The notes beneath the pieces were generated by a model, which saw only the letters and a list, made by a program, of their open reading frames with translations, was not told the DNA's origin and did not search any database. 64,000 nt of DNA from Pseudonocardia hierapolitana (lineage in GTDB: Bacteria > Actinomycetota > Actinomycetes > Mycobacteriales > Pseudonocardiaceae), in NCBI RefSeq assembly GCF_007994075.1, contig NZ_VIWU01000001.1, forward strand, positions 3,286,001 to 3,350,000, read 5' to 3'. Each line of letters begins with the position of its first letter. Position 1 is the first letter of the stretch. Position numbers and translations under genes: made by a program. Of the stretch, positions 8,485-22,127 are shown in pieces.

Positions 8485-8925
8485 ATGAACGGCACCGAGG
8501 GATTCAACCCGAATCGCGCAGATCGCGCCGCCTGCCTCGAGCGCATTGAGAAGGCGGTGCAGGCTGTCGGTCGCCGACTGAACTCGGAGATCATCACCAG
8601 CCGCGACGCCCAGGCACCCGAACTTCGGGACGCATTGGCCATCGAGAACGTACCCAACGGGTTCACTAAGCACCAACTGCCGGTCTACCTGTCCGAGTCT
8701 TCGTTCCTGTTCGTCACAGTCGCCGAGCCTGGAGCGGCCAGCACCACACACTCACATGACGAGGGCGACGGCATCCGCTTCATCGTGAGTGGTTCGATCG
8801 AGTACGAGGGAGTCGAACTGACCGCGGGCGATTGGATGTTCGTGCCTCGCGGGGCCGAGTACTCGTTCACGACAGGCCGGATGGGCGCGGTGATGTGCTA
8901 CTGCTACTGCTGCTGTTGCGCCTGA
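8485..8925 (+). CDS. Cupin-domain protein with C-terminal Cys-Tyr-Cys cluster
   Basis: A 146-residue protein. Residues 60-130 form a cupin barrel: SSFLFVTVAEPGAASTTHSH, FIVSGSIEYEGVELTAGDW and VPRGAEYSF. The metal-binding histidines are likely in THSHDEGD. The protein then ends abruptly in VMCYCYCCCCA (residues 136-146), with six cysteines in eight positions, an extreme composition for a C-terminus. The N-terminal 50 residues are helical and charged. GGAGGGAC precedes the ATG by a few bases, so the frame is firm. It opens the unusual accessory block: the protein-modification operon follows downstream in the same direction. The tail could bind metal or be a modification substrate; either is inference. 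Confidence 0.75.
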   Translation: MNGTEGFNPNRADRAACLERIEKAVQAVGRRLNSEIITSRDAQAPELRDALAIENVPNGFTKHQLPVYLSESSFLFVTVAEPGAASTTHSHDEGDGIRFIVSGSIEYEGVELTAGDWMFVPRGAEYSFTTGRMGAVMCYCYCCCCA

Positions 8926-8952: not shown

Positions 8953-9234
8953 GTGACTCGGCAGCTGGCGCTGCCCGACGTCGTGTTGGATCGCCGCGAC
9001 CCGGCCCCGATCAACGGCAGAGGCAGACGCCCACCCGCTGTGCGACGGTGGATCAACATCGCCGACCCCGGCGACATCATCGCCATCCCCCGCGGACTCG
9101 CCAATTACTTCGATGGCATCGACACTGACCTGACCACCCCGGTTGGAGTATTCAACGCCCACAAGGCAGCCGGCTATCTGTCGTGTACGACAACAGCGGC
9201 CGCGCTGGCGACGCTACTCGGGACCCACCGCTGA
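8953..9234 (+). pseudogene. C-terminal relic of an alpha/beta hydrolase (serine peptidase-like)
   Basis: A 93-codon frame that aligns only with the end of an alpha/beta-hydrolase domain. RRWINIADPGDIIAIPRGL carries the acid-strand motif (W-N-x-x-D-P-x-D) and VGVFNAHKAAGYLSCTTTAA carries the catalytic-His helix. The nucleophile and N-terminal two thirds are absent. The same motifs (TWLNAWAAADAVAV, then AHDIDEYL) occur in the intact trypsin-hydrolase fusion at 20166-22127, so the relic derives from a related effector-like enzyme. It starts 27 bp after the cupin gene. Confidence 0.5.
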
Positions 9235-9320
9235 TGGACGGCGTCCTGTCCGGCTGTGACGCTGCCGCCGATTCGGCGGACCCAGCGCCTCGCCGTGGCG
9301 CGCTGAAGAGGGGCAGCCAC

Positions 9321-9863
9321 GTGACCGCGGACGTGAGCATCCGCGCTGAGCTGGCCGCCCGAATCCTGCGCGTCGACGGACAGCGCCCTGACCGCCCGCC
9401 GGGTCTGTCCACGGTGTGGCGGTCCGGGCACCTGCCCCCCGAACTGCCGGGCGACACCTCTCACGGGGAAGACCAGGCCCGCTGGGCACCGCCCGGCGCA
9501 CCCTCGCCGAGGGCGGCTGACCGGCTCGTGGACCCCTGGGCGGCCGCACTGCCGCTCAACGTCGGGATGCGCGGCTACCTCGGGGCCTGCGTCAATCGCC
9601 CGGCAGACGTCCGGCATCTGCGAGCGGTCGGCGACGTCGACGGCCTGGGGATCGCGTCGTGCCTCGACGCATGGCGCTGGCTGTTCCGGCCGGACGTGGT
9701 GCTGCGCCCGTTCGCGAACGCGTGGTTGAACGTGGCTCAACGCGGCGACCACCACGCGCACGTCTTCGATGCCGAGCCGTTCGTAGGCGAAGCGCGGCCC
9801 GGACGTCGGCGCCACGTTCACGTCCTGAAACCCAGAAGGGGACTCCTCCGTGTCGCCGCGTGA
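9321..9863 (+). CDS. Unrecognised protein, first gene of the hydroxylase/glycosyltransferase operon
   Basis: A 180-residue frame from a GTG at 9321 preceded by GAGGGG. Its end overlaps the glycosyltransferase start by 14 bp, which supports its reality, and third positions are G/C-rich. It contains PWAAALPLNVGMRGYLGACV, CLDAWRWLFRPDVVLRPF and NAWLNVAQRGDHHAHVF. The last phrase loosely resembles the strand preceding the iron site in some 2-oxoglutarate oxygenases, but no complete HxD...H set is seen, so I do not assign a function. It could be a partner or scaffold for the downstream enzymes. Confidence 0.45.
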   Translation: MTADVSIRAELAARILRVDGQRPDRPPGLSTVWRSGHLPPELPGDTSHGEDQARWAPPGAPSPRAADRLVDPWAAALPLNVGMRGYLGACVNRPADVRHLRAVGDVDGLGIASCLDAWRWLFRPDVVLRPFANAWLNVAQRGDHHAHVFDAEPFVGEARPGRRRHVHVLKPRRGLLRVAA

Positions 9864-10803
9864 CAGGATCCTCGTGCAGATCCCGGCCTACCGCGATCCC
9901 GAGCTGATGCCGACCGTCCTCGACCTGCTGCGCACGGCGGCGTGCCCGGAACGGCTGAGCGTCGTTATCGCTTGGCAGTACGGCGAGGACGAGCGGGAGC
10001 TGGAAAAGCCGCTGCGGCGGCTAGCGCCGGTGCGGCTGCTCATGACGCGGGCGGCCAATAGCCAGGGCTGCAACTGGGCGCGGCGCGAGCTGCAGCGGTG
10101 CTGGTCGGGAGAGGAGTTCACGCTGCTGCTCGACTCCCATCACCGATTCGCGCCGGGCTGGGACGCGACCCTGGTCAATCTGCACCGGCAGCTGCGGGAC
10201 TCCGGCATCGAGCGGCCCGTGATGACCGCCTACCTGCCGCCCTACGACCCGGTGCGCGATCCGCAGGGCCGCGTCGAGGCCGTGTATCGGATGGCGTTGC
10301 TCGAGCGGCGCAAGGGCCTGATGTTCCGTCTCACGGGCCACCCCGTGCCCGGGTGGCGGAAGCTGACGAGACCCATCCCGGCCTGCTTCGCCTCTCTGCA
10401 CCTGCTCTTCGCCGAGGGAAGGTTCAACGAGGTCGTGGCCTGCGATCCCGACATCTACTTCTTCGCCGACGAGATCGCGATCGCGTTGCGCGCGTTCACC
10501 CACGGCTACGACCTATTCCACCCCCACGTCGTGCTGGGGTGGCACCTCTACGACCGGACGACGCGCGGCCGGCACTGGGACGACCACATCGGATCTTCCC
10601 GGCAGCGGGAACAATCGATCGAGCGCCTCCGGTCGCTCTACGCGGGCCGTTACTGCGGCCGCTACGGGATCGGCGACCAGCGGACGCTGGCCGAGTACGA
10701 ACAATTGACGGGCGAGCCTCTGCTCGCCCGGAAGACCGAACCGCTCCGGTGGGAGGAGGACCATGTCTATTTCGCCCGAGGTCCGCGCGGCACTCGTCCA
10801 TAG
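9850..10803 (+). CDS. Skp1-type GlcNAc-transferase-like glycosyltransferase
   Basis: A 317-residue cytoplasmic GT-A-type enzyme. RILVQIPAYRDPELMPTVLD opens the nucleotide-sugar domain, CNWARRELQRCW follows near residue 75, and LLLDSHHRFAPGWD (about 92-105) gives the DxH metal/sugar motif. This set belongs to the Glycosyltransferase (GlcNAc) family, whose known eukaryotic member attaches GlcNAc to hydroxyproline on Skp1 after a prolyl 4-hydroxylase has acted. Here a Pro-rich repeat protein and a hydroxylase are encoded immediately downstream with overlapping ends, so the same two-step chemistry is the natural inference. The GTG start has a GAAGGGGA site upstream. Donor sugar unproven. Confidence 0.8.
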   Translation: MSPRDRILVQIPAYRDPELMPTVLDLLRTAACPERLSVVIAWQYGEDERELEKPLRRLAPVRLLMTRAANSQGCNWARRELQRCWSGEEFTLLLDSHHRFAPGWDATLVNLHRQLRDSGIERPVMTAYLPPYDPVRDPQGRVEAVYRMALLERRKGLMFRLTGHPVPGWRKLTRPIPACFASLHLLFAEGRFNEVVACDPDIYFFADEIAIALRAFTHGYDLFHPHVVLGWHLYDRTTRGRHWDDHIGSSRQREQSIERLRSLYAGRYCGRYGIGDQRTLAEYEQLTGEPLLARKTEPLRWEEDHVYFARGPRGTRP

Positions 10804-11380
10804 GTATGGGAATGAGGGTGCTGGTGTCGATCAACGACTGCTCGAGCGGATCATCGACGAGGTGGCAGAGCACGCCTCCGCGCCGCCTCCCGCATCCCCG
10901 TTCGACGGCTCGTGGATGGACTCCTACGTCGCCCACTGGGCGCTGGGCCGGTCCGGTCCTCCCGGCCGCGACCGCTCCGCCGACGTCGCCGAGATTCTGC
11001 GGGCGGGAATGGACGCCAGGTTCGAGGAGCGTAAGGCCGAAATCCTCGCGTGGATCCGTGGCATGCTGCTCCCGCCCGACGGCGGCCCGCCGGAGCCCGG
11101 CACACCACCGGTCGGTCCCCTTGCCATGGTGGGGCCGGAGCCACCTGATGGCGGCCCACCCGAGCCAGGTACCCCCCCGGTCGGCCCGTCCGCACCCGAG
11201 CCGCCCGACGGCGGCCCACCGGAGCCCGGGGTCCCGCCCGTCGGCCCGGACCCGCAGGTCCTCGGCGACAACCCGTGGATCCTGTACTGGCTGGTCTCCG
11301 TCAAGGCCCCCGCGCTCCTCGACGTGCTCGACGCGCACCTGACCCGCCGGCTCGGTGAGCTGGGGTTCGAGCCGCGATGA
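10763..11380 (+). CDS. Proline/glycine-repeat protein, candidate modification substrate
   Basis: A 205-residue protein. Residues 1-100 are a helical, charged domain (VRAALVHRYGNEG, DARFEERKAEILAWIRGMLL). Residues 104-162 hold three copies of a 16-residue repeat, PPDGGPPEPG[TV]PPVGP, at 104-119, 127-142 and 147-162. A hydrophobic/helical C-terminal domain follows (NPWILYWLVSVKAPALLDVL, then HLTRRLGELG). GGGAGGAGGACC precedes the ATG, and the gene overlaps the glycosyltransferase by 41 bp and the dioxygenase by 4 bp. The operon position makes the prolines the likely targets of hydroxylation and glycosylation. No known family recognised. Confidence 0.8.
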   Translation: MSISPEVRAALVHRYGNEGAGVDQRLLERIIDEVAEHASAPPPASPFDGSWMDSYVAHWALGRSGPPGRDRSADVAEILRAGMDARFEERKAEILAWIRGMLLPPDGGPPEPGTPPVGPLAMVGPEPPDGGPPEPGTPPVGPSAPEPPDGGPPEPGVPPVGPDPQVLGDNPWILYWLVSVKAPALLDVLDAHLTRRLGELGFEPR

Positions 11381-12891
11381 GTACGTTCTGCTCATACGCA
11401 GGCGCGCTCGGGGCTGAGCACAACGCTGTCATCTACGCGACCGCAGTCGGCGGGCGGGACGGCTTCCAGGAGTCGCGGGTGGTCCGGCGCGGCGTCGACC
11501 GGCAGGTCCGCGCTTCAACGGTGCTCTACGCCGACCGGCTCACCGGCGTCGTGGGTGTCGTACGGGACGCGGTGCTGGCGCGGCTGGAGCAGGCCCGCCG
11601 GGTGCTCGAAATCCCCGAATTCGACGTCGGCACCGTCGAGTTCCAGCTGACCAGCCACAACGACGGCGAGTTCTTCGGGCCGCACACGGACGCGGCGTCG
11701 CCGGACACAGCGACCCGGATGCTGACCTTCGTCTACTACGTCCATCGCGAGCCGAAGGGTTACACCGGCGGCGAGCTTGTGTTCCACGGCCCGGACGGGA
11801 AGGAGGAGCTGTTCAACCCGGAGAACGACACGCTCGTCTTGTTCGATCCGCGGATCTCGCACGAGGTCCGGCCAATCTCCTGCCCATCGGGGACTTTCGA
11901 GGACGGCCGATTCACCCTCAACGGTTGGGTGCACCGGCGGACCGCATCGCGGTCGTCGAGCGCATTCTTCGACCAGAAGATCTTTACACCCGTGCGCCAG
12001 TGGTCCCGGCGCGGCGCCGGCGTGGGCGCCGCTCCGCCGTCCCGCCCACGTATGGAGGACGCGCAGCACCTGCGCGACCTGCTCCTGCTGTACGGCGACC
12101 TGCACCGCACCGGCTCGTCCCCGCGCACCGTCGACGTGCGTCCGGCGCTGGACGCCGACACGTTCTTCGACGAGTACTACGCCCGTAACCGGCCCGTTAT
12201 GATCCCCGGCGGGATAGCCGACTGCGAAGCCGTACGGGACTGGTCACCTGAGTTCCTCGCGCAGCGGTACAGCGACGTGCGGATTGAGATTACGTCCGGT
12301 CGAGACGCGATGCCCGACTATGAGCGGCGATACCGGGAGACAATCGAGGTCGTCACGCTGGCCGAACTGGCCCGGCGGCTCGCGGCGGCCGGCAAGACAA
12401 ACGACTTCTACGTCGTCGCTCGCAACAACGTCCTCGACCGCTCCGAGCTTCGCGCTCTTCGCGACGCCCTCACGCCACCGCCCGGGATCGTCGACAACAC
12501 CGACCGCCGCGCGGGCGCCACTAAGCTGTGGATCGGACCTCAAGGCACTGTGACGCCGATGCACTTCGACGAGCACTCAATCCTCTTCGCTCAGGTGCAT
12601 GGGCGGAAGCACTTCAAGCTAGCGCCCTCGTTCGACCATCCCCGGATGTACGCGCACCACACCTGGTACAGCGCCGTCGATCCCGAGTCGGTCGACCTAC
12701 ATCAGTACCCACTGTTCGCCGACGTCAGTCTCATGGACGTGGTGCTGGGGCCCGGCGACTGCCTCTTCCTCCCCGTGGGGTGGTGGCATTGGGCGAAGTC
12801 GCTGTCCGTGTCAATCTCAGCGACCTTCTCCAGCTTCGATCGGCCATGGCGCAACACTGCCCTCGGGCGACGACAGCATCAACCGACATGA
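11377..12891 (+). CDS. Prolyl 4-hydroxylase-like / JmjC-like double dioxygenase
   Basis: A 504-residue fusion of two iron/2-oxoglutarate-type domains. Residues 80-187 form a prolyl-4-hydroxylase-like oxygenase: GPHTDAASPD gives H103 and D105, YTGGELVFHG follows, RISHEVRP gives H162, and GRFTLNGWVHRR supplies the 2-oxoglutarate arginine. Residues 230-490 form a cupin_8/JmjC-type domain: TPMHFDEHS gives H396 and D398, VHGRKHFKLAP follows, and LFLPVGWWHWAKS gives H471. Both metal triads look intact. The ATG overlaps the Pro-repeat gene stop (ATGA). The first domain probably hydroxylates proline in that protein; the second may hydroxylate another residue of the same or a further target. Confidence 0.85.
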   Translation: MSTFCSYAGALGAEHNAVIYATAVGGRDGFQESRVVRRGVDRQVRASTVLYADRLTGVVGVVRDAVLARLEQARRVLEIPEFDVGTVEFQLTSHNDGEFFGPHTDAASPDTATRMLTFVYYVHREPKGYTGGELVFHGPDGKEELFNPENDTLVLFDPRISHEVRPISCPSGTFEDGRFTLNGWVHRRTASRSSSAFFDQKIFTPVRQWSRRGAGVGAAPPSRPRMEDAQHLRDLLLLYGDLHRTGSSPRTVDVRPALDADTFFDEYYARNRPVMIPGGIADCEAVRDWSPEFLAQRYSDVRIEITSGRDAMPDYERRYRETIEVVTLAELARRLAAAGKTNDFYVVARNNVLDRSELRALRDALTPPPGIVDNTDRRAGATKLWIGPQGTVTPMHFDEHSILFAQVHGRKHFKLAPSFDHPRMYAHHTWYSAVDPESVDLHQYPLFADVSLMDVVLGPGDCLFLPVGWWHWAKSLSVSISATFSSFDRPWRNTALGRRQHQPT

Positions 12892-13022: not shown

Positions 13023-13541
13023 TTACATTGCGACAGCAGGGCCCTGATCCGGCAGATCGACACAGATTAGTGTGCAGCACTCTGGGCCTGCCGGACATTC
13101 CTCGATACAGAACCAGAAGCAGTATCGTCGCATCGCGATTCCGCCCGAACCGGTACCTAACGGAGAACTAGGCCCCCGGAAGATGCGGTAGCCCCCTTGA
13201 GATGGCGCCACGCCCGCGCCGCCGCAACCGGAGCACTCACCGGGCGTTGTCGCGCGGGTCCCCGTGGCTGCCGCAGGATGCGCGGACACCGCAACGGAAG
13301 ACGACCCGCCAAAATCCGTTGAGGCGATGAGCGGCGATCGGCCCAGGTCGGATTTGCAGTGGCGACAACGAACAGCTTCCGGGTTGATGTTCTCCTTGCA
13401 TATCGGACATGTGCCGCCATGATCCGGCGGCCGGCCGATCGTCGCCTGACAATGAGGACATTTTGTTGCGCCGTCCCGTACCGGCTCCTTACAGGAGGGA
13501 CAGAATCTAGCGCCACTCTCTGTTTGCGCGTTCTCGGACAT
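13023..13541 (-). CDS. Double zinc-ribbon protein with Cys-rich C-terminal tail
   Basis: A 172-residue protein. Two treble-clef-type zinc ribbons come first: C14/C17/C28/C31 (FCPSCKEPV...KCPHCQ) and C45/C48/C59/C62 (TCPICKENI...RCRHCK). A low-complexity Ala/Gly/Ser linker follows, with CSGCGG at 103-108. The end is a compact Cys-rich segment, RRYCFWFCIEECPAGPECC followed by TLIC (residues 138-160). GGGAGAG precedes the ATG, 15 bp after the stop of the CLCA-like gene, so they form an operon. The tail recalls a small disulphide- or metal-rich peptide appended to a carrier domain. Function unknown. Confidence 0.75.
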   Translation of the reverse strand: MSENAQTESGARFCPSCKEPVRDGATKCPHCQATIGRPPDHGGTCPICKENINPEAVRCRHCKSDLGRSPLIASTDFGGSSSVAVSAHPAAATGTRATTPGECSGCGGAGVAPSQGGYRIFRGPSSPLGTGSGGIAMRRYCFWFCIEECPAGPECCTLICVDLPDQGPAVAM

Positions 13542-13556
13542 AGCGATCTCTCCCGA

Positions 13557-15974
13557 TCAGTTCTCGTAGAGCCGGGTCCAGTCCGCTGATCGCAGGCGGG
13601 TCGGGCGGGGTCGGTGGGGCAAGGGTCGGGACGGGATCTCGTCGTCGGGTTTCGGCTTGCGGCGTTCGCCGACGTCGAAGCCGATCACGACTTGGCGAAC
13701 GAAGAACGGTGCGCCCGGGTCGGAGTCGATGGAGTCGGTCTCGCTGTGGCTGAGCCGGGTGAAGGGCTCGGCGATGGACGCCGTCGGAGATCCGACGATC
13801 GTGACCAACGCCCGATACCGTCCATCCTCCTGAGGCTGGTAGACCGCCTGGTAGTTGCCGGTGTTGCGGCGATCGGCCTCGTCGTCGACGAGCACGGTGC
13901 TCCATGTCGCGCCGCTGGGGGCGGTGACGTTAGCGCGCACACCGATGTCGCTCAACTGGTGCTTCCAGCGCGCAGCGCCGCGGATGACCACCGGCGTTGC
14001 CGAGGGCGCCCACGGGGGCGCCGACGCGAAAACCTGTAGGTTGCGGTTCTCCCCTCCGGCCACCACCCCGGCGGTGAACGCGGCACCGGGTCGCACCCGG
14101 ACGGCGACCAGCAGCCATCGACCGGGAAGCGGACGATCCACCACGACGAACTCGTGTGGCGAAGTGCTCTCGACGTGATGGACGTCGCCCGCATTCGGGT
14201 CGACGACCGCGCCGTCGGGAGCTACCAGGTAGAGCCAGACGTCCTCCTTCGGCGGGTGGACGATGCTGAAGGACGCCCGGTCGGCATCCGACTCAACGTC
14301 GACCGGAATCACCACGATCCGATCGGAACGTTGCCGACCGCGTTTGAGCAGACTCTCCAGCGACTTCACTCCCGCGGCGTCCAGCAGCGTCGCGAGCGGC
14401 GGGCGCTGGCCCGGCCGCACGGATCCTTTGCCCTGCTCGAGCGGCGGCTCGATGATCTCGTCGATGCCGCTGTTCCCGCTGTCCGGGAACAGCGCCGGCT
14501 CGGTAGTGATGATCCCGCCGCGCACCTCCGCGTTGATCTCGATCATCGCATTCTCGATCACGTTGGGCTGGTTGTCGCCTACGCTGAATGACCGCCCGCC
14601 GGTTCCGGCGGCGAGGCCGTCGAGCACGCCCATGTCCACGGCCCCCGGCTGGCCCACACCCAGCGCATACAGGCGGATGCCGCCCTCCTGGTATTCGTCC
14701 AACGCCTCGGTCGGCGACGAGCCCGTGGGGAAGTTGTGGATCCCGTCGGTGATCAGCAGTGCGACCTGCACGGCGGCTCGGGTGGGCAGGCTCTCGATCT
14801 GGTCGCGCCCGGCGAACAGGGCGTCGCGGATGTTCGTGGATCCGCGCGGGGTCAGCGCGTTGATCGTCGTGGTGGTCGGACCGAGCCCGCCGAGCGCGGA
14901 CACCTGGGTCAGGCCGAGCAGGGTGTCGATCTGGTCGTCATAGGAGATCAGGGACAGAAGGTCGTTGCCGACCGAGCAGAACTCCAACCAGTAGACGGCG
15001 CCGTGGCGAGCATCGGTCATTTTGTTGCCCACGCTCATCGAGCCGGAGCGGTCGACCATCACCGCGAAACGCGACTGCTTGTCCAGAACGATCCAGTCCG
15101 GTGTGCTGAACCCCGTGGTCGGTCCCGCAACGGCCGGGTCGGGCGCGGCGAGTCCGGTGTAGCCGGGCCGGGCGACAATGGTCTCCCAGCACGAGTCGTG
15201 GTTGCGCGCTTCCTGCTGGGTGTCGAGATCGGCGTCGTGGTTGCTGTCGGAGCAGAACTCGGTGACCGGTTGCGCCGCAGGTGTCCAATTGCCTGCGGCA
15301 TCCAGGGTTCCGGCGGCACCTCGACTGTTCTCCATGATGCAGAACCGCGACCCGGTGGCCGTCGCGCACTCGGCGGGGAATTGGTACTGCACCCGTCCGT
15401 CCGAATCGGTCGTCGGCGACTGCGAGAAGGCGGGGCTGACGGTGAGCGACGTCGTCGTGTTGGCAGCAATATTTCGACGCTCGAGGTTCGCACCGAACTT
15501 GAGAATGGCGTCAGCGTCCACGAGCGCGCCCGGGGCGAAGCTGCTTCCCACGAGTGGCACCGTGGCGTTGTCGGGTGCCGCGACGGACGTATCAATCTGC
15601 TCGAGCACAGCATCGGCGGCGTACTCCTCCCCCAGCGCCCACACGTGATGTCCCATCTCGTGGTGGTGGGTGAGGACCTGGAACTTCACGTAGGGCATCA
15701 GATGGAGGGCCTGACCGGGAACGCCGAACTTTCCCCACGTGCCATAGCTCGGGTCCCCGCTGGCATGCAGAATGATCTCCGCGCTGTCCGCCCCGACCGA
15801 TTCGTCGCAGACGAAGATCCGGCCGTACTGAACCTGGCCTTCCGACGCGTCCCAGAACAGCTCGGACGCCTTCTCGAAGCTTCGCCGCCACTCCGTGGCG
15901 TCGGAGCTGCTCATGGAGAAGTTAGCAACAACGACAAGATCGAACTTGCCGTTCTTGAACCGACCCATACCCAT
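13557..15974 (-). CDS. CLCA-like zinc metalloprotease with VWA domain
   Basis: An 805-residue protein. Residues 1-120 hold a zinc-peptidase core ending in THHHEMGHHVWALGEEY, an HExxH (H105-H109) followed by the WxxxGEEY context typical of the CLCA family metalloprotease domain. Cys-containing segments FCIMENS, TEFCSDSNHD and RNHDSCWE (210-265) follow, again as in CLCA. A von Willebrand A domain begins AVMVDRSGSM with MIDAS residues D308, S310 and S312, and has LITDGIHNFP later. The last 250 residues are beta-rich. No signal peptide is seen, whereas animal CLCA proteins are secreted and self-cleave. GGGAGGG supports the start at 15974. Role here unknown. Confidence 0.8.
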   Translation of the reverse strand: MGMGRFKNGKFDLVVVANFSMSSSDATEWRRSFEKASELFWDASEGQVQYGRIFVCDESVGADSAEIILHASGDPSYGTWGKFGVPGQALHLMPYVKFQVLTHHHEMGHHVWALGEEYAADAVLEQIDTSVAAPDNATVPLVGSSFAPGALVDADAILKFGANLERRNIAANTTTSLTVSPAFSQSPTTDSDGRVQYQFPAECATATGSRFCIMENSRGAAGTLDAAGNWTPAAQPVTEFCSDSNHDADLDTQQEARNHDSCWETIVARPGYTGLAAPDPAVAGPTTGFSTPDWIVLDKQSRFAVMVDRSGSMSVGNKMTDARHGAVYWLEFCSVGNDLLSLISYDDQIDTLLGLTQVSALGGLGPTTTTINALTPRGSTNIRDALFAGRDQIESLPTRAAVQVALLITDGIHNFPTGSSPTEALDEYQEGGIRLYALGVGQPGAVDMGVLDGLAAGTGGRSFSVGDNQPNVIENAMIEINAEVRGGIITTEPALFPDSGNSGIDEIIEPPLEQGKGSVRPGQRPPLATLLDAAGVKSLESLLKRGRQRSDRIVVIPVDVESDADRASFSIVHPPKEDVWLYLVAPDGAVVDPNAGDVHHVESTSPHEFVVVDRPLPGRWLLVAVRVRPGAAFTAGVVAGGENRNLQVFASAPPWAPSATPVVIRGAARWKHQLSDIGVRANVTAPSGATWSTVLVDDEADRRNTGNYQAVYQPQEDGRYRALVTIVGSPTASIAEPFTRLSHSETDSIDSDPGAPFFVRQVVIGFDVGERRKPKPDDEIPSRPLPHRPRPTRLRSADWTRLYEN

Positions 15975-16165: not shown

Positions 16166-16640
16166 GTGGCCCTCCGACTCGCCGATCTCATGCTCGGACG
16201 CGTGCTCAGCTGGCTCGTGCTGCTCGCCCGATCCGACACCGTCAAGGACACGCTGCTGCGCTGGCACGCCCAGCTCGTCGCCCACCGCTGGACCTATCCA
16301 CGGCGAACACCGGGGCGCCCAGCGGTCACCCAGAGAGTTCGCGATCTGGTGCTACGGATGGCGCGGGAGAACTCAAGGTGGGGCTACCGACGCATCCACC
16401 GCGAGCTCGTCGGGCTCGGCCACCCGATCGCCGCGTCGACAGTGTGAAAGATCCTCAAGGCCGATGGCATCGACCCCGCACCGCGACGGTCCGGACCGAC
16501 CTGGCGACAGTTCCTCGCCGCGAAGGCCCAGGCGATCCTCGCGGTCGACTTCGCCCACGTCGACAGGCGTGCCGTCGTTTCCGACGAGGCTGCGGCGGAT
16601 GAGACGGTCCAGGACCGGCAGCGCTCCAGCGCCGTCCTGG
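16166..16640 (+). pseudogene. Integrase-core (DDE) transposase relic
   Basis: The frame reads VALRLADLMLGRVLSWLVLL, then WHAQLVAHRWTYPRR, then MARENSRWGYRRIHREL, which is the start and helix-turn-helix region of an rve-type transposase. Residues expected between LVLLARSD and LLRWH are missing, indicating an internal deletion. An in-frame TGA at 16445 interrupts the protein, after which KILKADGIDPAPRR and AILAVDFAHVD (first catalytic Asp) continue before homology stops. Certainly inactive. Confidence 0.7.
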
Positions 16641-16756
16641 TCCTTCACCAGGCCCAGGGTGTCAGCCTAGCTAGGCGAGTACTCCAGCCGGACTTCGTGA
16701 TCTTGCCGGCGGGGTGCTGGGAACGTGGCGCGGCCACCGCATGATCATCTCGGGTT

Positions 16757-17585
16757 GTGTGGACTCAAGAGGATGCGGTGGCCGCGGGCCACAGCGTAGA
16801 GGCCGGCCTGTGGCCAGCGTTGGAAGGTCAACTTCTGGACCGGGTTGCGCGTCGATTCGGACGGGTGGAGACCCGGCAGCGGCTCGCCCGGTTCCTGCGC
16901 GGGATGCTGGCGGAGCTGCCGCGCAAGACCTGCTGGAGCATCGCCGAACACGCCGGGGACTCCAGCCCGGATGGAATGCAGCACCCACTCAACCGGGCCC
17001 GCTGGAACACCGACGGTGTCGCCGCCGATCTGCACGGGTTCGTCGCGGTGCACCTCGGCGAACCCGCCGGGGTGTTGATCGTCGATGAGTCTGGGGATCT
17101 GAAGAAGGGCGAGCACACGGTCGGGGTGCAGCGCCACCGCGGGTCGGATCGAGAACGCCCAGGTCGCGGTCTACCTCACCTATGCCGGTCGGGGCGGGCA
17201 CGCGTTGATCGACCGCGAGCTCTATCTGCCCCCGCAGCTGGGCCGAGGACCCAGTCCGCCGGGCCGCGGCCGGGGTGCCTGACGAGGTCGAGTTCGCCAC
17301 CAAACCCGCGCTGGCCACCACGATGATCGCTCGCGGGGTCGAGGCCGGACTGCCCGTGGGGTGGGTCACCGCCGACGAGGTCTACGACATCGATCCCGAG
17401 CTGCGCGCCAACTCGAAGCCCTGCGACTCGGCTATCTGCTGGGTATCGGCTGCAACCGCCGGGTCAGCGTTCACGGCGCCGGCGGTGGTGTCCGGATGGG
17501 AGCCGACCAGGTCGCCGCCGGTCTGGCCAACCGGTGCTGGACCCGGGTCGCCCTCACCTGTGGAAACACGAGATCCGCCGCTTAG
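16757..17585 (+). pseudogene. IS701-type transposase relic
   Basis: The frame from 16757 encodes VARRFGRVETRQRLARFLRG, then PRKTCWSIAEHAGD and [20 protein letters not shown], the N-terminal half of an IS701-family DDE transposase with the first catalytic Asp in IVDESG. It then shifts frame. [41 protein letters not shown] and VTADEVY are spread over two other frames, and LEALRLGYLLGIGCNR lies in a further one. At least three frameshifts; the C-terminal end is missing. Confidence 0.7.
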
Positions 17586-17951
17586 CGCGGTGCAGTACAA
17601 CGCAACTCACGTACCGCCAGGCCAGTTTGACGTGATGCCGTGCTCCACATTTGCTCCACCTCAGACAGTCAATGACATCGTGTCACGGAACATGCAAGCA
17701 GCCGATACCTTTGGCGTGACGTGATGGCCCACACGTGCTCCACGCCCATCGACTCAACCCGGCGACGCTGCGTTCGCAGAACTCTATGTTGCATCGTGCA
17801 GCATCGGGTCGCGGCATTGGAGCGGAAGCGCAGACCCTACGAAAGAAGACCGTCGGCATCGTCGACGTGCAGTCCGGTTCTCTCGCCACGCCGATGGTCG
17901 CCTCGGGAGGCGCCGGTCACCAGCGCGGTCCGTCCCGCCAGCCGTCCTCCG
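17586..17951. other. No gene recognised
   Basis: About 365 bp between transposase and lactonase relics. Short open frames occur on both strands but show no family motif or consistent codon bias. Probably eroded sequence. Confidence 0.5.
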
Positions 17952-18599: not shown

Positions 18600-20150
18600 T
18601 CAACCACCATTTCGAACGGCGTGGTGCCGTTCCTGATCTCGATGCGGCCGTGGCTGCCACAGGGCGCCCGCGCGCCGACGCGGCAGCTGGACGATCCATC
18701 TCGCATCCGATCTGCCGACCTGCCCCGCAGGCTCGGTCCTCAGTACCTCGTCACCGTCGTCGAGCGTGTACACGTCCGGTACCCGATCACGGATCCGTTG
18801 CCGAAGGACGATCGCCACCACGACGATGGTGACGAAGGGCAACCAGGCCAGCAGGTAGGCGCCACCGTAGTGGCCGAAGTCGAAGATCGAGCGCCTCGGG
18901 TCGATGTCCGGAACGTTCGCCCCGAAGAAGGCGAGGAGCAGTGCCGGCGGCAGCGCGAGCACCGTGGCGACCGCGACGATCGTCGTGAAGACCTTGTCGC
19001 GGGCCTCGTCCTGCTCCTGGCTCGCTGCATCGAGCAGGACCCGCCGCGCACGAATCGCAGAAACGACCTTGTCGACGATTCGCGAGGTGTTCGCGATACC
19101 GTCCGACAGCGCCGAGACCTCCCTCAGGGAGGAGGAGTAGCTGTCGAGGACGAGCTCGGGGATCAGGATCGAGTCGGCGTAGGCCTCGACGCTGAATGCG
19201 AGATCGAGCTGGAGCTCGGTCAATCGATGGGACAGCCGGGACAGGAGCCTGCGAGCCCCGGCAACCGAGTTCAGGTCCGCCGTCTCGTTCAGCTCGAGCG
19301 CATCGAACGCGTGTCGGCGGACGCGGTGGATGGCCGCCACGGCGTTGAGAACGCCGAGAGCCGCGAGGGCGAACGAGTTCTCCAACGGCGCGGACCAACC
19401 GGCGATCACCGACACTCCGCGACCGTGCGCGACGAAGCAGCGCGAGGGCTTGTTGAGCAGGTCCGGCCGGCGTACGCCGAGCGTTGCCCCGCCTCCGCCT
19501 GTCTCCAGGGTGCCGCGAAGCACGATCTCCTCGAGCTCGGCGGGCACGTCATCGTGCGCGGCCGTCTCGATCAGCCGGGCGGCGAGCTCGCCTCCCGGGA
19601 AGACGCACTGGTGCACGTTGCGGCCGAGCTTCACCTGCACACCGTCGTCGTGATCCACACCGCTGGGCAGCCGGTCCCGCAACCAAACCTCGATGCCGAC
19701 GCCGTCGAGGGTGATCTCCGCGCGGTGTCGCCAGGTCTCGAACAGGATCACAGCGATGTCGGCGGCCTGCGGGACGTCCACCTCGACGTCGAGGAGCAGG
19801 AGCACGTCGCGGCGCGGCGTGGCGACCACGACGACGGTTCCTGCCAGCCGCCGCATGCGTGGATCCGCGAGCCGCGTGCAGAGGTCGGTGCGTACCGCCG
19901 ACACCTCGCGCACGACCCTCGGAAGGAGGGGACCGCCCGCCACCACGTGCTCCGCGAGGCGGCCGAACTCGAGCACGTCCGACAGAGGACGATCCTCGGG
20001 CTCCACCGGTGAGTCGACCTCGAGGTTGTACATGAGCAGGAGCCGGGTGGCCGTCCTGGCGCGAGCGTCCGACTGATCCGAGGTCGCGGCGCACTCCGGA
20101 CCTTCGGGATCGCGGGATTCGCTTCCGGAGTTCTTCATCGGGTCAGTCAT
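18600..20150 (-). CDS. CorA-like two-span membrane protein
   Basis: A 516-residue protein with a large cytoplasmic N-terminal region, a long helical section around residues 290-390, and two closely spaced C-terminal spans (about 388-409 and 434-450). Between them FFGANVPDID sits where CorA transporters have the GMN motif, so it is a divergent member of the CorA Mg2+/metal channel superfamily. An unusual basic tail of about 60 residues follows (QLPRRRAGALWQPRPHRDQE). It starts 15 bp after the trypsin-hydrolase fusion gene and is co-transcribed with it. Such CorA-like proteins beside peptidase-type effectors may form membrane pores; here that is inference. Confidence 0.7.
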   Translation of the reverse strand: MTDPMKNSGSESRDPEGPECAATSDQSDARARTATRLLLMYNLEVDSPVEPEDRPLSDVLEFGRLAEHVVAGGPLLPRVVREVSAVRTDLCTRLADPRMRRLAGTVVVVATPRRDVLLLLDVEVDVPQAADIAVILFETWRHRAEITLDGVGIEVWLRDRLPSGVDHDDGVQVKLGRNVHQCVFPGGELAARLIETAAHDDVPAELEEIVLRGTLETGGGGATLGVRRPDLLNKPSRCFVAHGRGVSVIAGWSAPLENSFALAALGVLNAVAAIHRVRRHAFDALELNETADLNSVAGARRLLSRLSHRLTELQLDLAFSVEAYADSILIPELVLDSYSSSLREVSALSDGIANTSRIVDKVVSAIRARRVLLDAASQEQDEARDKVFTTIVAVATVLALPPALLLAFFGANVPDIDPRRSIFDFGHYGGAYLLAWLPFVTIVVVAIVLRQRIRDRVPDVYTLDDGDEVLRTEPAGQVGRSDARWIVQLPRRRAGALWQPRPHRDQERHHAVRNGG

Positions 20151-20165
20151 GGCCGACGTCCGTCC

Positions 20166-22127
20166 TCATCCAGTTGCCGTCGCTCGGCCGATCTCCGCCG
20201 CCACCTCGGCGGCGGACAGGTACTCGTCGATGTCGTGGGCCCGGTCCTTGCGGTTCTGCGTGAGGACGTCCCGGACCTCGGCCCACGTGTCGGCGAGCGG
20301 GCATCCGACGGCCACCGCGTCGGCCGCGGCCCAGGCGTTGAGCCACGTGCCGACGCGAGCGGGACGCCTCGGGCCTCCCGACAGGAGCCGCTTGTACACG
20401 GAATCCATCCCGAGCGGGCTTCCCGCGGTGACGAGCACCGGGACCGCGACGCCCGGTGGAAGCCTCTCGATCAGGTCCATGGCGACCACCGTGCCGAGGC
20501 TGTGTGCGACCAGTACGACCTCGTCGTCGGTGGGGAACGTCTCGAGGACCGCGTCCAGGACGGCGATACGCACGGCGTCACGGTCGAGATAGGCCGCGAC
20601 GTCGCGGAAGATGGTGGCGATCACGACCTCGTCGAGCCCGCTGCGGTCTGCGATCCACGACAACGGTCCCTGCAGCAGCGAGACGAGACCGCCGAGGAAC
20701 CCGCCCTCCACCGCCACATCCCGCTTGCCGACGGGCATGCCGGCGCGGCGGGCGGCCTCGTCGATCAATGCCGCGTAGACGGCACGCGTGGACGCGTCGT
20801 CGGGGGCGTACGCCTCCGCGGTGGTCGCTTCCGCGCCGAGAGCCTCGGTCACGGCCCGCTCGCGGCCGTGCGCCGTCATCGCGGCGAGCGTGTCCCCGTA
20901 GTGCGGGAACCAGACCTCCTTGGCATCCAGTGGTGGGCGACCCGCCGCCGCGAGCCCGCGGGCCAGCCCGCCTGCCCACTCGGCGCGCATGATCGCGGGG
21001 TCGCGCCCCTGCGTGCCGCGACCGTGCAGGAACACGACCTGCGGCGTGCCTGCCCGCTCACCGCGGATGCCCCCGCGCGTGCCGACCGCGACCGTTGCCG
21101 CCTCGCCCCGCGCGCCGGTGATCGAGCCGACCCGATCGGCCGCGCCCGAGTCGGCGGGTACCGTCCTGGCCTTCTCCGGCAGCGCCTGCGGCCCGAGCTC
21201 GGTGAGCACCGCCCGCTGGGCCGGTGGCAGGGCGATCCCGTCGAGCCAACGCAGCAGCACACTGACGCGCGCGCCCTCGTTGGCGACCCAGCCGTCGCCG
21301 CCGGCGCCGGGGACGCTCGAGTGGTGCAGCGCGACGACCTCCCACTGGTCGTTGAACACGGGCGAGCCGGAGTTGCCCGGCTCCGTGTCGGTCTTGTAGT
21401 GCAGGAAGTCGTCGAGCTGGTTGAGCAGCGCGTTGTCGCGCAGCGCGACCTCCTTCGGGCGCGCGGCGGGATGGCCGATGACGTTCACCGGCTCCCCGAT
21501 CACGATCTTTCCCTGGCGTGCGACGAGCTGGTTCCAACCGTGCACCGCGCCGGGCAGCTCCCCGTCGCTCCTTGGCCGGACCGCGACGAGGGTCGCGTCC
21601 AGGTCGATGTTCGTCACGAACAGCAGGTCAGGCGCGAGTGCATAACGGACGGTCGGTTTCGCGACGCCTTCGTTGTCGACCTCGACGTCGAAGTCGGCGA
21701 AGGACTCAGCGGCCGTGGCGGCGTCCTGCAATACGTGGTTATTCGTCAGAAGCAGCCGCTTCCCCACCAGGAATCCGCTGCCGAAGCCGGCCGGGCGGCC
21801 ACCCTCCACCACCGCGATCCGCGCCACCGTCCTCGACGCCCGCGAACCACGACCGAGGAACGCAACGCCTTGCAGCTCGCTCGCGACCCCCAGGATCCGC
21901 TCCAGCCTCACCCCCTGCACCGCGTCGGCATCCGGCAGCGCGAGCGCGATCGTGCCGAGCCCGACCGCTCCGCCGGCCGCCAGACGTTCGGTGCGCGCCC
22001 TGACCTGCTCCGCGCTGTCGACGATGGCCGTCCCGGTCTCCACCTGCCTGCGTTCGATCTCGGCACGCTCGTCAGCGCTGCGGCGGTACCGCTCGATCAT
22101 GCGCTGCTGCTGCTCCTGCAGGTTCAT
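20166..22127 (-). CDS. Trypsin-like protease fused to alpha/beta hydrolase
   Basis: A 653-residue protein. After a charged helical N-terminus (EQQQRMIERYRRSADERAE), residues 105-300 form a trypsin-like serine peptidase: His131 in LLLTNNHVL, Asp177 in NIDLDATLVAV, Ser253 in TEPGNSGSPVF. Residues 362-650 form an alpha/beta hydrolase: VVFLHGRGTQG, Ser543 in VLVAHSLGTVVAMDL, Asp603 in NAWAAADAVAV, and His631 in RAHDIDEYL. Both triads look intact. No signal peptide, so it acts in the cytoplasm. Two hydrolytic domains in one chain resemble effector proteins of bacterial conflict systems; a housekeeping role cannot be excluded. Confidence 0.8.
   Translation of the reverse strand: MNLQEQQQRMIERYRRSADERAEIERRQVETGTAIVDSAEQVRARTERLAAGGAVGLGTIALALPDADAVQGVRLERILGVASELQGVAFLGRGSRASRTVARIAVVEGGRPAGFGSGFLVGKRLLLTNNHVLQDAATAAESFADFDVEVDNEGVAKPTVRYALAPDLLFVTNIDLDATLVAVRPRSDGELPGAVHGWNQLVARQGKIVIGEPVNVIGHPAARPKEVALRDNALLNQLDDFLHYKTDTEPGNSGSPVFNDQWEVVALHHSSVPGAGGDGWVANEGARVSVLLRWLDGIALPPAQRAVLTELGPQALPEKARTVPADSGAADRVGSITGARGEAATVAVGTRGGIRGERAGTPQVVFLHGRGTQGRDPAIMRAEWAGGLARGLAAAGRPPLDAKEVWFPHYGDTLAAMTAHGRERAVTEALGAEATTAEAYAPDDASTRAVYAALIDEAARRAGMPVGKRDVAVEGGFLGGLVSLLQGPLSWIADRSGLDEVVIATIFRDVAAYLDRDAVRIAVLDAVLETFPTDDEVVLVAHSLGTVVAMDLIERLPPGVAVPVLVTAGSPLGMDSVYKRLLSGGPRRPARVGTWLNAWAAADAVAVGCPLADTWAEVRDVLTQNRKDRAHDIDEYLSAAEVAAEIGRATATG

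Follow-up and report, generated by a model that had tools for sequence, protein, structure and literature searches.

Hydroxylation of a protein followed by attachment of a sugar is familiar chiefly from amoebae, algae and plants. Skp1 undergoes prolyl hydroxylation by PhyA, after which GnT1 modifies it with N-acetylglucosamine (GlcNAc) (PMC8724618, PMC9485057), the bacterial prolyl hydroxylase PPHD acts on EF-Tu (PMC7864055), and the arginyl hydroxylase JMJD5 binds its target Arg through E238 and Y243, with a Q275C variant having been studied together with a substrate Cys variant (PMC5862942). Here we analyzed a stretch of 64,000 nucleotides from Pseudonocardia hierapolitana (NZ_VIWU01000001.1; source genome 8.86 Mb in one contig), referred to as the window, in which consecutive genes encode a glycosyltransferase (GT), a Pro/Gly repeat protein (PRO) and a two-domain 2-oxoglutarate (2OG) and Fe(II)-dependent oxygenase (OX). 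We consider it probable that the three genes constitute a bacterial protein-modification cassette, in which PRO would be the dedicated substrate, OX would hydroxylate its repeats and GT would cap the hydroxyproline with a sugar.

Organization and conservation of the gene cluster

Four overlapping open reading frames (ORFs) are found on the forward strand of the window, and the overlaps between consecutive ORFs, calculated from their coordinates, are 14, 41 and 4 bp, in agreement with a sequence-only reading of this DNA that preceded our analysis. A contig collection of 84,980 species was scanned with two short peptide patterns, which gave 117 stretches, five of them encoding PRO. The order GT-PRO-OX is kept in all six loci, comprising the window and those of an Intrasporangium metagenome-assembled genome (MAG), two Nitrospira MAGs, Nocardioides astragali and a Paracoccus MAG. 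The two Nitrospira loci are 96-99% identical in module proteins and count as one lineage, and the six loci thus represent five lineages from three phyla. Nocardioides was confirmed as a member of Actinomycetota, and we take the Nitrospira MAGs to belong to Nitrospirota and Paracoccus to Alphaproteobacteria. Compared with the window, the five other loci encode GT with 53-64% identity and, where complete, OX with 42-56% identity. The sequence-only reading had named a lack of co-occurrence elsewhere as a refutation of its proposal; a glycosyltransferase, a repeat protein and a prolyl hydroxylase do occur together outside this genome, both in the six loci and, as described below, among contig sizes common to the lists of relatives of the three proteins.

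The first of the four genes, which had been counted as part of the set, has no tblastn match at E 0.1 in the five other loci and was rejected as a module member. Its product (180 aa) starts from a GTG inside a longer ORF (9183-9863) and is matched by neither a Pfam model (E 1) nor an NCBIfam model (E 0.1), and the base composition of the ORF is coding-like. Matches at E <= 0.001 were obtained in 3 of 150 family genomes, one being its own copy and the remaining two weak (3.4e-4 and 6.6e-4) and interrupted by four stops each. The conserved module therefore consists of GT, PRO and OX, and the first gene lies outside it. Neither a fourth gene nor a sugar-extending enzyme is common to the examined stretches, two of which (Intrasporangium and one Nitrospira) are only 4 kb long.

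The overlaps had also been taken as a sign of fixed stoichiometry. This inference is invalid, and the overlaps vary between loci: the end of PRO overlaps the start of OX in the window and in the Intrasporangium and Nocardioides loci, and gaps are present in both Nitrospira loci and in Paracoccus, so that the overlap is not a fixed feature. In Nitrospira an extra gene of the FAD amine-oxidase family (PF01593, tested for L008) separates GT from PRO, and could encode a sugar-nucleotide enzyme or a further tailoring enzyme.

The repeat protein family

Three 16-residue units of the form PPDGGPPEPG[T/V]PPVGP were located in PRO, confirming the three Pro/Gly repeats described from the sequence alone. 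Pairwise comparison of the window copies gave 11, 6 and 8 of 16 codons with synonymous changes versus 0, 1 and 1 with non-synonymous changes, a statistic that is partly circular since the units were located through their own core. Because synonymous changes dominate, the repeats appear to be ancient and to have been maintained as protein sequence.

A total of 150 relatives of PRO were found at E <= 0.01 in 5.8 billion proteins, and the best 120 of them were listed. None of these 120 carries a precomputed Pfam domain. PRO itself is unmatched in Pfam (E 1), in NCBIfam (E 0.1) and among PDB sequences (E 1), and a fold search of PDB gave no significant match (best E 2.5). The N-terminal region, the repeats and the C-terminus are conserved in 87 aligned rows (the window and 86 of the 120) as well as in an alignment of 35 rows. 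By these sequence comparisons, PRO belongs to a real and unnamed protein family. The listed proteins contain 310 core units PD[GA]GxPEPG, with two units in 48 proteins, three in 50, four in 13, one in seven, five in one and none in a single protein, which looks frameshifted by eye. Beyond the core used for searching, positions +10, +11 and +14 are occupied by Pro in 306, 272 and 249 of the 310 units, respectively, and the Thr position of PEPGT is occupied by Val in 167 and by Thr in 112 units. Near the C-terminus, R195 and R196 are near-invariant.

In the AlphaFold model of PRO, residues 5-101 and 171-199 are helical and are joined by a linker of low confidence (mean predicted local distance difference test score, pLDDT, 72.7; predicted template modelling score 0.32). 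Scored for hydropathy by a simple count, none of the 120 listed proteins has a hydrophobic N-terminal segment (the 15-residue mean reaches at most 1.37 within the first 45 residues), and we therefore take PRO to be probably cytosolic.

A degenerate pattern of the repeat core matched the window's own genome three times, always inside PRO, and all 13 matches in the five other module genomes fall within the coordinates of PRO, giving 16 of 16 matches inside PRO; a reversed control pattern gave none. Matches to PF11397 are likewise confined to one gene, the GT of the module, in each of these six genomes, four of which are MAGs and possibly incomplete.

Catalytic residues of the two enzymes

GT matches the GlcNAc-transferase family PF11397 at 3.9e-50 (171.7 bits against a curated cut-off of 21), and the motif DSHHRF occupies residues 95-100, which bears out its description as a Skp1-GlcNAc-transferase-like enzyme. 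GnT1 of the Skp1 pathway is, we presume, a member of the same family. Residues D95, S96, H97, D207 and E208 are present in all 121 aligned rows (the window and the best 120 of 1768 matches, one of these being the window's own). Four of these best 120 relatives are named hydroxyproline polypeptide GlcNAc-transferase by JGI. GT is predicted to transfer GlcNAc to hydroxyproline, with the acceptor assigned from the family.

OX had been recognized as a prolyl-4-hydroxylase-like dioxygenase, which holds for its N-terminal half (PF13640, 2OG-FeII_Oxy_3, residues 89-186); a second half with a Cupin_8/JmjC domain (residues 262-481) had been missed. The whole-protein E-values are 4.2e-16 and 3.4e-37, respectively, and the predicted model has a mean pLDDT of 90. 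Profile comparison places the N-terminal half among solved prolyl hydroxylases, with 4iw3 (1.7e-8; also 4j25), 6t8m (5.6e-8) and EGLN1 (2.3e-6), where 4iw3/4j25 is presumably PPHD. The C-terminal half matches JMJD5 (1e-44), JMJD7, FIH and TYW5 by profile, and JMJD5 again both by sequence search (5.1e-24) and as nearest fold (template modelling score 0.83, normalised to JMJD5).

An alignment of 99 rows (the window and 98 listed relatives; an 80-row version was also built) reveals H103 and D105 in 98 rows with one gap, and H162 and R178 in all 99. In the C-terminal site W385, H396, D398 and K411, the counterparts of JMJD5 W310, H321, D323 and K336, are present in 99 of 99 rows, and H471 in 97 (one gap, one Arg). 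With these conserved catalytic residues, including both metal-binding triads of OX, the module enzymes look active, and the N-terminal domain of OX is predicted to hydroxylate a protein proline.

The acidic E238, by which JMJD5-type arginyl hydroxylases bind the target Arg, is absent from the aligned position of OX, where T306 is found (Thr in 97 of 99 rows), and Q275 corresponds to R349 (99 of 99 rows), with R309 invariant nearby; both positions were counted by hand at about 24% identity and are approximate. Based on these two substitutions, the JmjC site would, with caution, suit an acidic residue rather than Arg, and each repeat unit of PRO contains one Asp and one Glu. R195 and R196 of PRO are possible targets of a JMJD5-like Arg hydroxylation, a possibility weakened by the loss of E238.

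Stand-alone cupin-like proteins of 335-351 aa (P0223-P0225, P0229 and P0236), named from Myxococcus, Corallococcus and Sorangium, are 38-44% identical to the JmjC half alone.

Shared contigs, parallel divergence and distribution

The size of the longest contig recorded for each protein cluster was compared between the lists of relatives, comprising 118 PRO rows (two of the 120 being without a size), 98 OX rows (P0121-P0218), 22 cupin-only rows and 120 GT rows. Both oxygenase domains are carried by 97 of the 98 OX rows. Identical sizes between lists suggest that the genes are on the same contig, and the counts are lower bounds, as GT is represented by the best 120 of 1768 matches and the searches for OX and GT were limited to 7996 candidates. 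Among the matches listed, 15 of 30 PRO contigs of at least 10 kb share their size with OX, 15 of 30 with GT and 20 of 30 with either, and none of the 30 does so with a cupin-only row. At a threshold of 5 kb, 27 of 46 have a size in common with an OX or GT row among the matches listed, as against a mean of 0.17 and a maximum of 2 in a jitter control. At least 15 contig sizes are common to all three lists, one being that of the Paracoccus locus, and the identical sizes point to 14 further contigs that would carry all three genes, adjacency being based on the six loci read. None of the cupin-only rows shares a contig size with any PRO or GT row among the matches listed.

Short contigs may match by accident and no claim is built on them; a size match (2397) between GT P0349 of Pyrinomonadaceae and OX P0153 was dropped, the contig being too short for three genes. 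In a Roseovarius carrier, PRO, OX and GT are all assigned to contig size 78752. Other contigs identified by their size include those of 269342, 167621, 70325 and 31611. A PRO from Chitinophagaceae (P0086, Bacteroidota) and the GT from Pyrinomonadaceae (P0349, Acidobacteriota) show no partner among the matches listed.

Pairwise distance matrices of 16 GT-PRO-OX sets are correlated with r of 0.74, 0.73 and 0.79, values reached by none of 2000 permutations each. These parallel distances fit joint inheritance of the module.

The distribution of the module is patchy and rare. PRO was rejected as a widespread clade marker, since only its own genome is positive among 297 family and 396 phylum genomes. 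Carriage by phages or plasmids was also rejected: PRO is without a match in 72,556 plasmids, and PRO and OX are without a match in viral contigs, at the sensitivity of those scans. About 4 kb downstream of the module, fragments of HTH_32 and DDE_5 in different frames probably represent a broken insertion element; such transposase-type fragments are compatible with mobility and do not prove it.

Genomic surroundings

The features of the window and of the other loci are listed in Table 1. Upstream of the module, a small cupin protein (146 aa) ends in CYCYCCCCA and matches Cupin_2 just below the cut-off. Partial matches to it (31-33% over about 62 residues) were found in 4 of 119 other family genomes searched, and none in the five other loci, and it was rejected as a part of the module. 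A zinc-ribbon protein with a Cys-rich tail, adjoining the VWA protein, was rejected as well; its one match (E 0.006) lies antisense inside OX of the Paracoccus locus and is taken as chance. The VWA protein (805 aa) combines an HEMGH zincin-like motif, seen by eye, with a VWA domain, and its best NCBIfam model, the calcium-activated chloride channel family, is far below cut-off. The Trypsin_2 peptidase (653 aa) adjoins a protein with weak similarity to CorA and has a weak PADLOC match to RT-Protease_XI. When eight window proteins were scanned with PADLOC, the only models that the module matched were general 2OG ones, on OX, and the module was rejected as a defence system.

Table 1. Features of the GT-PRO-OX module, its surroundings and the other loci (window coordinates unless a locus is given)
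Feature	Coordinates	Strand	Evidence or remark
First ORF (A), outside the module	9321-9863	+	
GT, PF11397-family glycosyltransferase, 317 aa	9850-10803	+	Pfam match, alignment
PRO, repeat protein, proposed dedicated substrate, 205 aa	10763-11380	+	
PRO residues 5-101, helical N-terminal region containing the consensus PFGVSWMDSWVAHW	10775-11065	+	alignment, AlphaFold
PRO repeat 1, PPDGGPPEPGTPPVGP	11072-11119	+	
PRO repeat 2, PPDGGPPEPGTPPVGP	11141-11188	+	
PRO repeat 3, PPDGGPPEPGVPPVGP	11201-11248	+	
PRO C-terminal helix, residues 171-199, consensus NPWILYWFVSxKAPxLLDVIDAHxTRR	11273-11359	+	alignment, AlphaFold
OX, two-domain 2OG/Fe(II) oxygenase, 504 aa	11377-12891	+	
OX N-terminal prolyl-hydroxylase-type domain, residues 89-186	11641-11934	+	PF13640, alignment, profile
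OX C-terminal JmjC/Cupin_8 domain, JMJD5-like, residues 262-481	12160-12819	+	Pfam, alignment, fold
Small cupin protein	8485-8925	+	
Zinc-ribbon protein (Zn_ribbon_3, DZR), tail YCFWFCIEECPAGPECCTLIC	13023-13541	-	
VWA protein	13557-15974	-	
HTH_32 and DDE_5 fragments	16166-17724	+	
Trypsin_2 peptidase and adjoining protein	18600-22127	-	
FAD amine-oxidase-family gene, between GT and PRO	L008:1988-3460, L009:835-2307	+	
L007, Intrasporangium MAG			encodes PRO; 4-kb stretch, OX cut at contig end
L008, Nitrospira MAG			encodes PRO
L009, Nitrospira MAG			encodes PRO; 4-kb stretch, OX cut at contig end
L010, Nocardioides astragali			encodes PRO
L011, Paracoccus MAG			encodes PRO

Discussion

The gene order, the confinement of the motif to PRO and the conservation of the repeats argue for PRO as the target of its two neighbors, and the chemistry is proposed from the protein families and from the Skp1 precedent of PhyA and GnT1. 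PRO would be made in the cytosol and be helical at both ends, with a disordered linker in between that usually comprises two to four PPDGGPPEPG[T/V]PP[A/V]GP units. The N-terminal domain of OX would convert one or more repeat prolines to hydroxyproline, the JmjC domain may hydroxylate a further residue, perhaps the Asp or Glu in that unit, and GT would then cap the hydroxyproline with a sugar, for which GlcNAc is the likeliest candidate. A GT and a PHD-type hydroxylase are both present and linked at the module loci, and they may act jointly. The modified PRO might serve as a cytosolic sensor-switch dependent on O2 and 2OG, as for Skp1, or as a structural or partner protein. A sensor-switch is conceivable in view of the dependence of both oxygenases on O2, 2OG and iron. 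It is a tentative and rather unlikely extension that the module is an oxygen-responsive switch, in which the fused oxygenase writes Pro and Asp/Glu hydroxyls in each unit and the Skp1-type GT reads the hydroxyproline, making it a mobile counterpart, perhaps a forerunner, of protist Skp1 oxygen sensing.

Several observations weigh against a dedicated cassette. Among the matches listed, 19 of 46 PRO contigs of at least 5 kb are without a GT or OX partner, and the rarity of PRO in the family and phylum suggests that the role of the module is dispensable. GT relatives with 40-42% identity occur in two genomes (L004 and L005) from another family of the same order, with no PRO or OX beside them in the 3.9-kb stretches examined, which indicates from sequence that this GT family has other uses. 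The parallel distances are also expected from shared host phylogeny alone, and the circularity of the repeat statistic mentioned above belongs here as well.

A different linkage is unlikely, though it is the alternative that survives best: the sugar would be placed on a hydroxy-Asp or hydroxy-Glu made by the JmjC domain, or on the Thr of PEPGT, and the hydroxyproline would stay bare or serve another purpose. Asp and Glu do belong to the repeat core, where they are fixed by the method of finding units, and the changes from E238 to T306 and from Q275 to R349 would suit an acidic target in the light of the JMJD5 study (PMC5862942). Against this, Thr is not required, as Val is the more frequent residue at its position, and Skp1 carries its sugar on hydroxyproline in the cited account (PMC8724618).

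It is improbable that PRO is instead a scaffold or recruiting partner, whose repeats dock GT and OX for the modification of another cellular protein. Tandem Pro-rich motifs are classic docking sites, and both ends of PRO are conserved alongside the repeats as expected for binding modules. However, Pro/Gly repeats are also typical of prolyl hydroxylase substrates, the variation from one to five units (none in one of the 120 listed) is usual for multi-site substrates, and the examined stretches, two of them only 4 kb long, have no fourth gene in common.

Still less probable is a precursor like those of ribosomally synthesized and post-translationally modified peptides, from which small modified repeat peptides would be released, perhaps by neighboring peptidases. 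A large peptidase-like or VWA protein adjoins the module in all four loci with enough flank (the window and the L008, Nocardioides and Paracoccus loci), these assignments being partly weak, with a match below cut-off in L008 and a zincin motif called by eye in the window. The neighbors of the module in L008 and Nocardioides have a 245-residue stretch in common (29% identity). Nevertheless, the flanking proteins are of different families and deserve little weight; the VWA protein of the window is without a match in the three other genomes and was rejected as a shared peptidase partner. Unlike in a leader-core precursor, conservation is strong in the segment that follows the repeats, and apart from the 245-residue stretch no transporter or protease is common to the examined stretches, two of which are only 4 kb long. 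That the genes are ordinary neighbors without joint function has a negligible chance, despite their rarity in the phylum, and is largely refuted by the same order across Actinomycetota, Nitrospirota and Alphaproteobacteria, the shared contigs and the parallel divergence.

If the proposed cassette is correct, hydroxyproline-linked protein glycosylation would exist in bacteria in compact form with its own substrate, and would offer a tractable system in E. coli for the study of prolyl hydroxylation and hydroxyproline glycosylation, as well as a 16-residue peptide tag open to modification at will. In OX, protein oxygenases of the prolyl-hydroxylase and JmjC types would be naturally fused. The cassette could also be related, as a bacterial system, to the Skp1 pathway, the enzymes of which are considered to have been present in the last eukaryotic common ancestor (PMC8724618).

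Among known systems, the Skp1 pathway of Dictyostelium and Toxoplasma likewise combines a cytosolic PHD-type prolyl hydroxylase with a GlcNAc-transferase, and the Skp1 of Dictyostelium is additionally bound by JcdI, a JmjC protein (PMC9485057). The cassette differs in that it is bacterial and a single gene cluster, both oxygenases are on one polypeptide, and no common sugar-extending enzyme accompanies them in the examined stretches. Its candidate substrate is an unrelated repeat protein rather than Skp1, in keeping with the absence of Pfam and PDB matches to PRO at E 1. The C-terminal half of OX resembles JMJD5 (KDM8) and FIH, with JMJD5 matched by sequence and fold and the catalytic counterparts conserved, and departs from JMJD5 in having, by the approximate alignment, Thr306 for the Arg-binding E238 and the invariant Arg349 for Q275. 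Plant and algal hydroxyproline-O-glycosylation, as in extensins, shares the order of prolyl hydroxylation and then a sugar on the hydroxyproline, there of cell-wall proteins (PMC8724618). Unlike the cassette, the extensin pathway is secretory, uses other sugars (Gal, Ara) and has many substrates.

Bacterial PPHD (presumably 4iw3/4j25) is the best profile match among solved prolyl hydroxylases for the N-terminal half of OX; it acts on a folded house-keeping protein, and we know of no partner GT or dedicated substrate of PPHD. Mimivirus L230 and BclA are cases in which a repetitive collagen-like protein is hydroxylated and/or glycosylated, with GXY repeats and other enzymes. In the literature searched (titles and starts of abstracts, a 2010 survey of peptide-modifying dioxygenases being outside the scope), neither a bacterial module of GT, repeat protein and oxygenase nor a natural fusion of the two oxygenase types was found. 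Compared with these systems, the chemistry itself is known, and what appears to be new is the proposed hydroxyproline glycosylation by a bacterial cassette that encodes a repeat substrate of its own and a double oxygenase.

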